Positions 27,396 through 60,208 of a DNA stretch of 64,000 nt are shown piece after piece. Below the pieces are notes generated by a model. It was not told the origin of the DNA. It worked only from the letters and a program-made list of their open reading frames with translations, and made no database searches. Position 1 is the first letter of the stretch. Each line of letters begins with the position of its first letter. The position numbers were made by a program, and so were the translations under genes. Source of the DNA: an uncultured Bradyrhizobium sp. (GTDB lineage Bacteria; Pseudomonadota; Alphaproteobacteria; Rhizobiales; Xanthobacteraceae); assembly GCF_947648125.1 (NCBI RefSeq), contig NZ_CANSMR010000007.1, positions 248,001 to 312,000 on the forward strand, given 5' to 3'.

Positions 27396-27470
27396 TGGTG
27401 CTGCCAGACAGGATTGAACTGTCGACCTCTCCATTACCAATGGAGTGCTCTACCACTGAGCTACGGCAGC
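27396..27470 (-). tRNA. tRNA-Thr (anticodon GGT)
   Basis: A minus-strand cloverleaf of 75 nt with encoded CCA (27396-27398). The acceptor stem is GCTGCCG with TGGCAGC, the D arm has AGCTCAGTGGTAGAGC, the anticodon stem is CTCCA/TGGAG with loop TTGGTAA (anticodon GGT), and the T arm is GACAG/CTGTC with TTCAATC. Confidence 0.97.
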
Positions 27471-28152: not shown

Positions 28153-29850
28153 ATGGCCATGGATGAAACGACGATCGACCGATTGAACGCAACCGCCACC
28201 GCTTTCCCGCGCCACGAGCAAACCTTTCCGACCCTGACGGCGCATGAGATCGAGCGGATGCGCCGCTTCGGCGAGCCGCGGTCGTACAAGGATGGCGAGG
28301 CGCTGTTCGAGACGGGCAAGCCGGGGCCCGGCATGTTCGTGGTGCTGTCGGGCAGCGTGGCGATCTCCCAGCGCGATGGCCTCGGCCGTGTCACGCCGAT
28401 CATCGACCAGGGGCCGGGGCAATTCCTCGCCGAGATCGGCCAGCTCTCCGGGCGCGCCGCGCTGGTCGACGGCCATGCCGAGGGCCCCGTCGAGACGCTG
28501 CTGCTGCCGCCCGAGCGGCTGCGCGCGCTGCTGGTTGCCGAGGCTGACCTCGGCGAGCGCATCATGCGCGCGCTGATCCTGCGCCGCGTCAGCCTGATCC
28601 AGGGTGGCGCCGGCGGGCCGGTGCTGATCGGCTCCGCGTCGGTCGGCAACATGGCGCCGCTGCAGAATTTCCTGGCGCGCAACGGCCAGCCGCATCACGT
28701 CCTCGATCCCGAGACCGACAAGGATGCGGCCGATCTCGTCGCGCGCTATTCGCCGACGCGCGCCGAGCTGCCGCTGGTGGTCTGCCCGAACGGCACGGTG
28801 CTGCGCAATCCGTCCGAGACCGCGCTGGCGATGGCGCTCGGTATGATCGGCAACAGTGCGCAAGACAAGCTCTACGATGTCGCGGTGGTCGGCAGCGGCC
28901 CGGCCGGGCTCTCCACCGCGGTCTATGCGGCCTCCGAGGGGCTGTCGGTCGCGGTGTTCGATTCCCGCGCGTTCGGCGGCCAGGCCGGCGCCAGCATGCG
29001 GATCGAGAACTATCTGGGATTTCCGACCGGCATCACCGGCCAGGCGCTGGCCGGGCGCGCCTTCAACCAGGCGCAGAAATTCGGCGCCGAGATGCTGATC
29101 CCGGTTTCGATCAAATCGCTCGACTGCTCGAAGGCGTCGGGCGCGTTCACGCTCGCCACCGGCTGCGGGCACACGCTGCGCGCCAAGTCGGTGGTGGTCG
29201 CGAGCGGCGCGCGCTATCGCCGGCCGGCGATCGACAATCTCGAGAATTATGAGGGCCGCGGCGTCTGGTACTGGGCCTCGCCGATCGAGGCGCGGCTCTG
29301 CGCCCAGCAGGATGTCGTGCTGGTCGGCGGCGGCAACTCCGCGGGGCAGGCGGCGGTGTATCTGTCGGCGCATGCCCGCAGGGTCAACATGATGATTCGC
29401 GGCGGCGGGCTCGGGGCCAGCATGTCGCGCTATTTGATCGAGCGCATCGAGGCGACGCCGAACATCGAACTGATGTTCAACACCGAGGTGATCGGGCTCG
29501 AAGGCGCGGAGACGCTGGAGCGCGTGCGCTGGCGCAGCCGGCTCGCGCCCGACGAGTTCACCATGGATATCCGCAATCTCTTCCTGTTCGTCGGCGCCGA
29601 TCCGGCGACCGGCTGGCTCGAGGGCTGCGGCGTGCAGGTCGACCGCGGCGGCTTCGTGATGACCGGTGTGCAGAACGGCGAGGGTGCGCCCGCGGTGCCG
29701 TTGCTCGAGACCACGGTGCCCGGCGTGTTCGCGGTCGGCGACGTCCGCTCCGGATCGGTCAAACGCGTCGGCGGTGCGATCGGCGAGGGCGCGCAGGTCG
29801 TTGCGGCGCTGCACGGCTATCTCGCCGATGACGGCAGTCCGTCGCTGTAG
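28153..29850 (+). CDS. cNMP-binding / thioredoxin-like / TrxR-like FAD oxidoreductase without active-site cysteines
   Basis: A 565-residue three-part protein. Residues about 30-150 are a cyclic-nucleotide-binding domain (LFETGKPGPGMFVVLSGSVAIS). Residues about 155-232 look like a thioredoxin/glutaredoxin fold lacking CxxC. Residues 240-565 are a thioredoxin-reductase-type flavoprotein with FAD motif VVGSGPAG (246-252), NAD(P) motif VGGGNSAGQAA (391-401) and VFAVGDVRSGSVKR. Where thioredoxin reductase has CATC, this protein has WASP (about 374-377), so it cannot use the usual disulfide relay. Starts at 28153 and 28159 are both possible. The UBP zinc finger gene begins 8 bases after its stop, a pairing suggesting joint function. 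Confidence 0.9.
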   Translation: MAMDETTIDRLNATATAFPRHEQTFPTLTAHEIERMRRFGEPRSYKDGEALFETGKPGPGMFVVLSGSVAISQRDGLGRVTPIIDQGPGQFLAEIGQLSGRAALVDGHAEGPVETLLLPPERLRALLVAEADLGERIMRALILRRVSLIQGGAGGPVLIGSASVGNMAPLQNFLARNGQPHHVLDPETDKDAADLVARYSPTRAELPLVVCPNGTVLRNPSETALAMALGMIGNSAQDKLYDVAVVGSGPAGLSTAVYAASEGLSVAVFDSRAFGGQAGASMRIENYLGFPTGITGQALAGRAFNQAQKFGAEMLIPVSIKSLDCSKASGAFTLATGCGHTLRAKSVVVASGARYRRPAIDNLENYEGRGVWYWASPIEARLCAQQDVVLVGGGNSAGQAAVYLSAHARRVNMMIRGGGLGASMSRYLIERIEATPNIELMFNTEVIGLEGAETLERVRWRSRLAPDEFTMDIRNLFLFVGADPATGWLEGCGVQVDRGGFVMTGVQNGEGAPAVPLLETTVPGVFAVGDVRSGSVKRVGGAIGEGAQVVAALHGYLADDGSPSL

Positions 29851-29858
29851 GAGATTTG

Positions 29859-30167
29859 ATGACAAAAGGCTGCACCCACATCGCCGGCATTCAGGACGTC
29901 ACGCCGAGTGCGTTCGGCTGCGAGGAATGCCTGAAGAGCGGCAGCCGCTGGCTGCATTTGCGGATCTGCCGGACTTGCGGCCATGTCGGCTGCTGCGACG
30001 ACTCGCCGAACCGACATGCGACGGCGCATTTCCACACCACCGGCCATCCCGTGATCGAGGGCTACGATCCGCCGGAAGGCTGGGGCTGGTGCTATGTCGA
30101 CGAGGTGCTGTTCGACCTGTCGAGGCGCAAGACGCCGCATAACGGGCCGATCCCGCGCTATTATTGA
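29859..30167 (+). CDS. UBP-type zinc finger protein
   Basis: A 102-residue protein that is essentially one ZnF-UBP domain. The ligand pattern is visible: Cys5-x-His7, Cys21-x2-Cys24, Cys37-x2-Cys40, Cys45, then His53, His57 and His59 in RHATAHFHTTGHPV, followed by WGWCYVDEVLFDL. In eukaryotes this fold binds the C-terminal Gly-Gly of ubiquitin (USP5, HDAC6, BRAP2). Bacterial stand-alone copies are known but their ligand is not. ATG at 29859 has GGAG six bases upstream. It is translated directly after the TrxR-like flavoprotein, so the two probably form one unit. Cytosolic; no signal peptide. Confidence 0.9.
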   Translation: MTKGCTHIAGIQDVTPSAFGCEECLKSGSRWLHLRICRTCGHVGCCDDSPNRHATAHFHTTGHPVIEGYDPPEGWGWCYVDEVLFDLSRRKTPHNGPIPRYY

Positions 30168-30338
30168 TTCAGTGTCTCACGAGGAGCACGTGCGTACGAC
30201 ATGCGTGCGACAATTTTTGGCAAGTGCCGACGCCGGCAAATTTCTCATGAGATGTCGGCGATCCTGCCATCGAACCATGTAGCAATTTTCAAGGACGCAT
30301 CGTAACGTAGTGCGGGTTCTCAACGGGGAGTACGCCAC

Positions 30339-30839
30339 ATGACGACGCTGGTGCTTGTGCACGTCATTATCAGCCTGATCGCTATCGTCGCCGGCGTGAT
30401 CGTGATGTTCGGCCTGCTCGGCTCGCGCGCGATGCCCGGGCTGACCGCGATCTTCCTCATCCTCACGATCCTGACCAACGCCACCGGCTTCGTGATCCCG
30501 CCCTTGGCGACCGAGAAGCTGCTGCCGTCGCACATCATCGGCGGCCTCTCGCTGGTGCTGCTCGCGATCGCCTGCATCGCGCTGTATGCGATGCAGCTCA
30601 AGGGCGCCTGGCGTCCGATCTATATCGTGACCGCGATGGTCTCGCTCTATCTCAACGTTTTCGTGCTCGTCATCCAGAGCTTCCTCAAGGTGCCCGCGCT
30701 GCAGGCGCTGGCGCCGGCGGTGCCGCCGAACCCACCGTCCGGGCCGGTGTTTGCGGTGGTGCAGGGCATCGTGCTGGTGTTCTTCGCCGTGGTGATCATC
30801 GGCGCCTGGCGCCGGTTCAGGCCGGTCACGTTCGCCTGA
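30339..30839 (+). CDS. Four-helix membrane protein of unknown function
   Basis: A 166-residue integral membrane protein. Hydrophobic segments lie at about 2-25 (LVLVHVIISLIAIVAGVIVMFGLL), 35-55, 65-85, 92-115 and 138-158, giving four to five helices. The loop PAVPPNPPSGP precedes the last helix and the C-terminus is basic (AWRRFRPV). No catalytic motif is seen. A GGGGAG-type site lies just before ATG 30339. It stands 171 bases after the zinc finger gene; the gap has no visible terminator, so read-through is possible. Confidence 0.78.
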   Translation: MTTLVLVHVIISLIAIVAGVIVMFGLLGSRAMPGLTAIFLILTILTNATGFVIPPLATEKLLPSHIIGGLSLVLLAIACIALYAMQLKGAWRPIYIVTAMVSLYLNVFVLVIQSFLKVPALQALAPAVPPNPPSGPVFAVVQGIVLVFFAVVIIGAWRRFRPVTFA

Positions 30840-30952
30840 TCGGGGGCGGATGACATCATTTCGCGGCGACGCACGGCATAGAAGGTGACGCGCGATGGCG
30901 CGCGCGTGAGCTGCGTTCGCGCCTGAAGATCTGCAACAAGAGGAGCAATCAA

Positions 30953-31777
30953 ATGCCGATCATCACCACCAAAGACGGCGTCGAGATCTTCTACAAGGAT
31001 TGGGGTTCGGGCCAGCCGATCGTGTTCAGCCATGGCTGGCCGCTGTCATCGGACGACTGGGACGCGCAGATGCTGTTCTTCGTGGGACACGGTTTTCGCG
31101 TCGTAGCCCATGACCGCCGCGGCCACGGCCGCTCCGCCCAGGTCGCCGACGGCCATGACATGGACCACTATGCCGACGACCTCGCGGCCGTCACCGCGCA
31201 TCTTGACCTGAAGAATGCCGTCCATGTCGGCCATTCTACCGGCGGCGGCGAGGTGGTGCATTACATCGCCCGCCACGGCGAGAGCCGGGTCGCAAAGGCC
31301 GCGATCCTGAGCGCGGTGCCGCCCCTGATGGTGCAGACCGCGGCCAACCCCGGCGGTCTGCCCAAGTCGGTGTTCGACGGGCTGCAGGCCCAGCTCGCGG
31401 CCAACCGCTCCCAGTTCTACCGCGATATTCCGGCCGGGCCGTTCTACGGCTACAACCGGCCCGGCGCAAAACCGTCGGAAGCCGTGATCCAGAACTGGTG
31501 GCGGCAGGGCATGATGGGCGGCGCCAAGGCGCATTACGACGGCATCGTCGCGTTCTCGCAGACCGACTTCACCGAGGACTTGAAGAAGATCACTGTGCCG
31601 GTGCTGGTGATGCATGGCGACGACGACCAGATCGTGCCCTATGCCGATTCCGGCCCGCTCTCGGCCAAGCTTTTGAAGAACGGCACGCTGAAGACCTACA
31701 AGGGTTTTCCGCACGGCATGCCGACCACCGAAGCCGAGACGATCAACAAGGATCTGCTGGCGTTCATCAAGGGCTGA
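30953..31777 (+). CDS. Alpha/beta hydrolase (non-haem chloroperoxidase-like)
   Basis: A 274-residue alpha/beta hydrolase of the cofactor-free haloperoxidase/aryl-esterase group. The oxyanion turn is [12 protein letters not shown], the nucleophile Ser95 lies in [18 protein letters not shown], the acid is in [12 protein letters not shown] and the His in FPHGMP near the end. These proteins hydrolyse esters and can form peracids from acetate and peroxide; the natural substrate is usually unknown. The start has AGAGGAGC upstream. It sits between the membrane protein and a Rossmann-fold gene in what may be an oxidative-stress or detoxification block. Confidence 0.93.
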
Positions 31778-37039: not shown

Positions 37040-37115
37040 GCCCAGGTAGCTCAGTTGGTAGAGCATGCGACTGAAAATCGCAGTGTCGGTGGTTCGATCC
37101 CGCCCCTGGGCACCA
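37040..37115 (+). tRNA. tRNA-Phe (anticodon GAA)
   Basis: A 76-nt cloverleaf with encoded CCA. Acceptor stem GCCCAGG with CCTGGGC, D arm AGCTCAGTTGGTAGAGC, anticodon stem TGCGA with TCGCA and loop CTGAAAA (anticodon GAA), T arm GGTGGTTCGATCCCGCC. It sits after yacG as in related genomes. Confidence 0.98.
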
Positions 37116-59999: not shown

Positions 60000-60107
60000 G
60001 CTACGGCCGGCCTGCACCTGTCCCAAACTAGGTCAATGGCCGACATGGCAAACAAAGACTGAAGAAATCCGTTCATTTACGATCGGTTAAGCTTTCTCGA
60101 TTATGAC

Positions 60108-60208
60108 TGCATTGTCCTTGTTTGGACACCGAGTGGCTCCTGTCCACTCTGTTTGACGCCTCCCTGTTATCAACTTCAAAAGCCGCCGGAAACGGCGGCT
60201 CTTTTTTG
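60108..60208 (+). ncRNA. Candidate small RNA with three hairpins and anti-Shine-Dalgarno motifs
   Basis: Three hairpins follow each other: TGTCC/GGACA (60113-60128), GAGTGG/CCACTC (60131-60149) with loop CTCCTGT, and the strong terminator at 60181-60200 with TTTTTT after. Between the second and third lies single-stranded GCCTCCCTG. CTCCT and CCTCCC can pair with ribosome-binding sites, as in the CUCCUCCC-type sRNAs of Rhizobiales. No protein gene ends here, so the terminator needs a transcript. The 5' end is a guess; AT-rich sequence at 60070-60105 may hold the promoter. Confidence 0.4.
60181..60208 (+). terminator. Strong Rho-independent terminator
   Basis: AGCCGCCG and CGGCGGCT form a perfect 8-bp stem around a GAAA tetraloop, followed by CTTTTTTG. 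It is the best terminator in the window, yet the nearest plus-strand gene ends over 300 bases upstream, with a repeat between. Confidence 0.88.

Follow-up and report, generated by a model that had tools for sequence, protein, structure and literature searches.

A sensor-linked, thioredoxin reductase-like flavoprotein lacking its CATC site pairs recurrently with a bacterial ZnF-UBP protein

We describe a pair of adjacent genes in a 64,000-nucleotide stretch of DNA from an uncultured Bradyrhizobium sp. (assembly GCF_947648125.1, contig NZ_CANSMR010000007.1, positions 248,001 to 312,000 of the forward strand; hereafter the window). The first gene encodes a flavoprotein, here called F, which is built on the plan of thioredoxin reductase (TrxR), has lost the CATC redox site and carries a cyclic nucleotide (cNMP)-binding domain. 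The second encodes a small stand-alone ZnF-UBP protein, here called U. The pairing of F and U is real, conserved and widespread, and it includes many soil bacteria. With a rough probability of 0.45, and hence tentatively, we read the pair as a module linked to stress, in which a sensor would gate an NAD(P)H flavoprotein and U would be an accessory partner, neither a reader of ubiquitin nor essential to F. New here are the frequent loss of U beside a retained F, versions of the module with a receiver (REC) domain and a cNMP-domain kinase, and its presence in chaperone operons. Our searches of open-licence literature showed no publication on the F-U pair, and Genome Biol 2006 R60 gave no match to terms for either protein type.

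Results

F is a three-part flavoprotein that has lost both dithiol sites

The initial annotation, made from the sequence alone, had proposed cNMP, redoxin-like and TrxR-like parts for F, and family profiles bear this out. The N-terminal domain belongs to cNMP_binding (Pfam PF00027; 46.3 bits against a cut-off of 27.5) and the core to Pyr_redox_2 (Pfam PF07992; 109 bits against 26.1), with a flavin adenine dinucleotide (FAD) motif, VGSGPAG, and an NAD motif, VGGGNSAGQ, read from the translation. Between them, at about residues 152-236, lies a glutaredoxin-like domain: a profile built on 42 homologous segments matched the Mycobacterium tuberculosis glutaredoxin-like protein Rv3198.1 (2lqo) at E 2.2e-6, ahead of SecA 2 (E 0.0057) and a glutaredoxin (E 0.045). 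The single segment from the window gave no Pfam redoxin match, the sole family listed being P-loop_SecA at E 0.0018, below the family cut-off. In the phosphate cassette of the cNMP domain Glu94 is kept in 41/45 homologues and Arg101 in 37/45; the window has Ala93 where 34 of the 45 have Gly, and the loop from Glu94 to Arg101 is presumably two residues shorter than the usual cassette spacing.

At the CATC position F reads WASP (residues 374-377), with W374 and I378 facing the two reductase cysteines. WASP had already been noted in the initial annotation; the placement comes from a profile alignment with solved reductases and from an alignment with TrxB of the same genome (CAT-CDG). Our F table has 74 rows, the window being entered twice; 73 of them cover the site and none has CATC. 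An 81-row tree took in two controls from the same genome, TrxB (L119) and a distant homologue (L120), and a CxxC stands at the site only in TrxB. The loss of CATC is thus a family trait of F and not peculiar to this locus. The glutaredoxin-like domain of the window F has no CxxC either, and the sole CxxC among 45 F rows (L097) lies outside that domain. With no CxxC left in either the core or the glutaredoxin-like domain, F should be incapable of a classical dithiol relay.

F is nevertheless not free of thiols, and two statements of the initial annotation need qualifying. It had described the thioredoxin-like domain as lacking cysteines, which holds for the CxxC motif but not for C211 (present in 33/45 homologues); and its term non-thiol flavoenzyme, right as to CATC, overstates the case in view of C383, nine residues past W374 and kept in 43/45. 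Glu379, at the position of the Asp that follows CATC in the aligned reductases, is found in 45 of 45 homologues, as is R416, the only residue retained of the NADPH motif of TrxR, which we take to be HRRxxxR.

F resembles several known proteins and differs from each of them. Residues 241-556 have the FAD/NAD(P) fold of low relative molecular mass TrxB (TIGR01292; E 1.3e-60); the score of 204.8 bits stays below the curated cut-off of 343.45, and F lacks the CATC/CxxC site, keeps only Arg416 of the NADPH motif and adds the cNMP and glutaredoxin-like domains. AhpF, which presumably has N-terminal cysteines of its own, likewise carries a redoxin-type domain ahead of a TrxR-like core, but F reaches only 145.4 bits against a cut-off of 502.9, has no CxxC in either part and has a cNMP input. 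The core also matches the TrxR-like ferredoxin-NADP reductases 3lzw and 3ab1 (E 1.5e-28 and 2.8e-29), enzymes that are not known to have a CxxC or a sensor or redoxin domain; no ferredoxin family is among the 25 neighbour families displayed per scan. A core like that of some F proteins described below (L109, L193 and others) is found in REC-TrxR response regulators, in which REC stands where the window F has its cNMP domain. The REC-TrxR combination has already been published (PMC5847659), and the accessible part of that paper contains no link to a cNMP-domain kinase or to U.

U keeps the ZnF-UBP fold with a rebuilt pocket

U belongs to zf-UBP (Pfam PF02148; 46.5 bits against a cut-off of 22.7) and matches the solved structure 2ida at E 3e-62, consistent with the fold of solved ZnF-UBP domains. 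This solved relative, the bacterial protein RPA1320, is of the same family with no evident difference, and has no function listed. The eukaryotic domains of HDAC6, USP5 and USP16 share with U the fold and most zinc-ligand positions, and the differences lie in the pocket. The tail-binding Arg, R84 in USP16, to which we take USP5 R221 and HDAC6 R1155 to be equivalent, is Asp47 in U (Asp in 156, Glu in 4, Asn in 2 and Arg in 0 of 162 rows). An alignment with USP49 shifts this Arg one place on, to position 48; the 159 rows displayed out of 162 have no Arg there either. The Gly preceding the Arg is Cys46 (Cys in 161/162); together with C45, found in 162/162, U has one cysteine more at this place than the aligned USP16. 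A four-residue insert with an invariant Leu34-Arg35 further sets U apart from the eukaryotic domains. In the aromatic part of the pocket, W115 and Y117 of USP16 face W77 and Y79 of U, and the counterpart of W72 differs between alignments: W31 (152/162 rows) aligns with the Trp of USP49, and a gap in the USP16 alignment sets W72 opposite R35. As our pattern scan favours U proteins of the GCCD type, sets selected by profile were also used to assess how well C45-D47 are conserved; C46 is found in 44/45 rows of an actinobacterial set in which F is absent nearby in most places.

In the accessible text of the respective papers, the single substitution R221K lowers the ubiquitin affinity of USP5, from 2.3 to 100 micromolar (PMC3247260), and USP16 R84A/Y117A is termed binding-deficient (PMC10424181). 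The initial annotation had raised the possibility that U recognises a C-terminal tail as its eukaryotic relatives read free Gly-Gly tails. We consider such canonical reading by U unlikely because the tail-binding Arg is Asp and the preceding Gly is Cys, although judging from the alignment the invariant Arg35 of the insert could in principle substitute for the missing Arg.

U itself ends in a GPIPRYY-type tail (30144-30164), seen in 36/45 F-linked and 15/35 unlinked rows of the pattern scan and in 0/39 actinobacterial rows. No position clearly separated F-linked from unlinked U in this comparison, the GPIP-type tail being present in 36 and 15 rows, respectively.

F and U are linked in many genomes

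U starts eight bases past the stop codon of F, and an AGGAGA-like ribosome site for U overlaps that stop codon. Genome contigs were scanned with an alignment of U, and the best 80 of 593 confirmed matches were inspected; these stand close to U and do not amount to a census. F adjoins U in 44 of these 80 loci (45 by another linkage criterion, which adds the L109 triad), upstream on the same strand in 32, downstream on the same strand in 7 and on opposite strands in 5. The linkage thus occurs in different gene orders and is not one inherited block. The coupling noted by the initial annotation, which would have fallen had the two genes rarely been neighbours elsewhere, has therefore held up, also in the co-occurrence described below. 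Three of the 44 (L043, L051, L091) have a broken or partial F; in L043, from a Bradyrhizobium metagenome-assembled genome, a stop splits it into two open frames (L043:3838-5592). No natural F-U fusion was found among the open reading frames of L001-L117.

Searches independent of the GCCD pattern gave a similar picture. Among 299 genomes of the phylum of the window F is adjacent at all ten places with U, the window being one of the ten; among 60 relatives U occurs with F at 13/20 places, and in plasmid regions, hand-picked from a listing, at 9/13. The linkage is looser in Actinomycetota, where we counted 74 U places and fetched 40, and 12 of the 40 stretches contain F. The two genes also co-occur across genomes: F is present in 40/56 actinobacterial genomes with U against 50/246 overall (hypergeometric 1e-23; F called at E 1e-75 or better), in 10/10 against 29/299 in the phylum sample (1.5e-11) and in 17/17 against 39/60 among relatives (1.3e-4), all three values being overstated as relatedness is uncorrected.

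The wider module: alternative inputs, chaperones and exchangers

A sensory input accompanies F in 53 of 57 linked copies: a cNMP domain in 42 and a REC domain with a kinase in 11, leaving four without an assignable input; none could be assigned to the copy on one plasmid (L033) either. REC replaces the cNMP domain in F of L109, L105/L167 (one locus), L173, L176, L181, L184, L189, L193, L197 and L199, and in these loci a kinase of the cNMP-domain type sits between or beside F and U. This combination of a response-regulator F, a cNMP-domain histidine kinase and U was seen in Actinomycetota (9/40 places; domains shown by Pfam for L109) and in an acidobacterium. Hence a cNMP-type sensor stays in the system under either wiring.

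Some pairs lie among chaperone genes. The order grpE-dnaJ-cbpM-clpB-trxA-U-F is found on actinobacterial plasmids (L034, L035, L243) and in L195, and two of these loci, L034 and L243, also show dnaK; on the Paraburkholderia plasmids L033 and L246 F and U lie beside a Clp ATPase, Hsp20 and HdeD. The latter context recalls the heat-resistance loci, transferable and carrying clpK and sHsp20, that are described in the accessible part of PMC5383660. The actinobacterial operon closes with a DUF1931 gene 3' of F (L034:6950-7390; also L243 and L195).

U occurs in other company as well. TrxA adjoins it without F in L062 and L174. In L100, L106 and L117 it forms the rear part of a fusion protein with a Na+/H+ exchanger that carries TrkA_N; the domain table covers L100, and the domain tallies give three for the whole set. 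On a Deinococcus plasmid U lies within an annotated cation:proton antiporter gene. In L117 (L117:2549-6252) a cNMP-domain-kinase-like gene lies directly 5' of the exchanger fusion, so that this kinase type stands beside U also without F.

F is retained where U is lost

Among 33 full-length F proteins of the Bradyrhizobium type (at least 72% identity; two partial pieces of G016 excluded), 13 have an intact U beside them and 20 do not. By tblastn at E 1e-3 U was undetected at 19 of the 20 places; the remaining one (L203) has a remnant. F is therefore retained without U, and U is, in part, dispensable to F. At 18 of the 20 places, and at L203, the genes for the membrane protein and the alpha/beta hydrolase that follow the pair in the window still lie 3' of F; in L212 the contig stops 615 bases past F. 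The phylum sample has two more places of this kind, L235 and L236, where F stands without U. Flanked by F and the membrane gene, the remnant in L203 (L203:2660-2773; residues 61-96 at 51% identity) appears to be a U in decay.

The locus and its surroundings

The features of the locus are collected in Table 1. The hairpin scan, which is weak (3 sites in the region against 1.2 expected in shuffles), gave no terminator-like hairpin between F and U, and a sigma-70 promoter scan found no promoter. Downstream, at 30339-31777 (+), lie a 166-amino-acid membrane-type protein (no Pfam match at 1e-5) and an alpha/beta hydrolase; both adjoin F in the Bradyrhizobium relatives examined, U-less ones included. 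We rejected alpha/beta hydrolases as a further recurrent neighbour, as they make up 7/133 neighbours of linked U, partly owing to this Bradyrhizobium block. An anti-phage identity was also rejected, as neither F nor U matches PADLOC models at E 0.01. Rfam at gathering thresholds gave no RNA feature at the locus; its three matches lie elsewhere in the window, namely tRNA-Thr (ggt) at 27396-27470 (-), upstream of F, tRNA-Phe (gaa) at 37040-37115 (+), downstream, and the alphaproteobacterial small RNA BjrC1505 at 60069-60208 (+; 135 bits).

Table 1. Features of the F-U locus (positions in the window)
Feature	Position	Strand	Basis
F gene (ATG to stop), 565-amino-acid flavoprotein (cNMP-binding, glutaredoxin-like, TrxR-like core)	28153..29850	+	open reading frame, Pfam, profile alignment
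cNMP-binding domain of F, residues 43-127	28279..28533	+	Pfam PF00027
Glutaredoxin/mycoredoxin-like domain of F, residues 152-236, without CxxC	28606..28860	+	profile match to 2lqo
TrxR-like FAD/NAD(P) core of F, residues 241-546	28873..29790	+	Pfam PF07992
Former CATC site of F: WASP (374-377), Glu379, C383	29272..29301	+	alignments
U gene (from ATG), 102-amino-acid stand-alone ZnF-UBP protein	29859..30167	+	open reading frame, Pfam, match to 2ida
Two terminator-like hairpins 3' of U	30189-30209, 30225-30238	+	hairpin scan, weak

Discussion

How might such a module work? From its domains we infer that F is an enzyme whose N-terminal input, of the cNMP type or elsewhere a REC domain beside a cNMP-domain histidine kinase, would gate an FAD/NAD(P)H flavoprotein on the TrxR plan. 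As both dithiol stations are lost and the FAD and NAD(P) motifs kept, the flavin itself should act directly on the acceptor, or else Glu379 and C383, which are near by sequence, might do so. U would most likely make contact with F and dock it to a client or an output in protein-quality or redox stress.

Several observations weigh against this reading. C46 and D47 of U are conserved with or without F nearby and hence are no F-specific trait. Chaperone genes were seen with the pair in six loci, and not in the window. No F was seen in the fetched stretch, short in some cases, at 33 of the 80 loci, and it lies farther off at three more; nor was it seen in 28 of the 40 actinobacterial stretches, and only 15 of the 74 actinobacterial U places lie within 3 kb of an F place entered in the comparison. 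None of the 25 neighbour families displayed per scan recurs strongly, and the Bradyrhizobium F proteins without U show that F is kept in the absence of its partner.

It might also be possible that F is a sensor and not an enzyme, reading the NAD(P)H or flavin state together with a cyclic nucleotide or phosphorylation, with U as the output that is bound or released. The lost dithiols and the frequent sensory input would suit such a role, and in the exchanger fusions a nucleotide-binding (NAD-type) module is again joined to U. The strong conservation of the FAD and NAD motifs and of Glu379, however, suggests catalysis, and F persists without its supposed output; we find this explanation rather doubtful.

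Alternatively, U could supply the missing thiol in trans: C45 or C46, beside Asp47 in the former tail pocket, would take electrons from the flavin of F or bear a thiol modification that F reduces. Both cysteines are nearly invariant, one of them is extra with respect to USP16 and C46 aligns with the Gly beside the tail-binding Arg; moreover, TrxA adjoins U in the actinobacterial chaperone operons and in two loci without F. But C46 is conserved equally well in the actinobacterial set, mostly away from F, F is retained where U is lost, and zinc-bound thiolates are usually poor redox partners, all of which makes this possibility unlikely. Quite improbable, in our opinion, is its extension to a trans-acting thiol reductase, in which U, with Cys46 and Asp47, would be the recruited thiol partner and would pass reducing power, or a client bound to it, on to stress targets connected with chaperones; a cNMP or phosphorelay sensor would control the process.

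We give little credence to the idea that U recognises a free C-terminal tail of the Gly-Gly kind and recruits the protein bearing it to F, since the Arg is missing at either alignment position and mutants of that Arg or pocket in USP5 and USP16 weaken or lose binding. That F and U are neighbours by genomic accident, maintained through co-transfer without joint function, would fit the missing U in many Bradyrhizobium and the frequent changes of linkage on the U tree (24 at the fewest, on a poorly resolved tree), but is very improbable given a linkage repeated across orders, strands and phyla and the co-occurrence across genomes.

In conclusion, we favour the sensor-gated flavoprotein module with U as its accessory partner. 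Some database entries label F-type proteins as thioredoxin reductases despite the missing cysteines, NCBI naming some of them 'cyclic nucleotide-binding domain-containing thioredoxin-disulfide reductase'. In the pair a domain known from the ubiquitin field meets bacterial redox signalling and chaperone operons. The rebuilt pocket of U suggests a non-ubiquitin ligand for the bacterial ZnF-UBP fold. With a solved homologue (2ida) and a recurrent partner at hand, the question has become a testable one.
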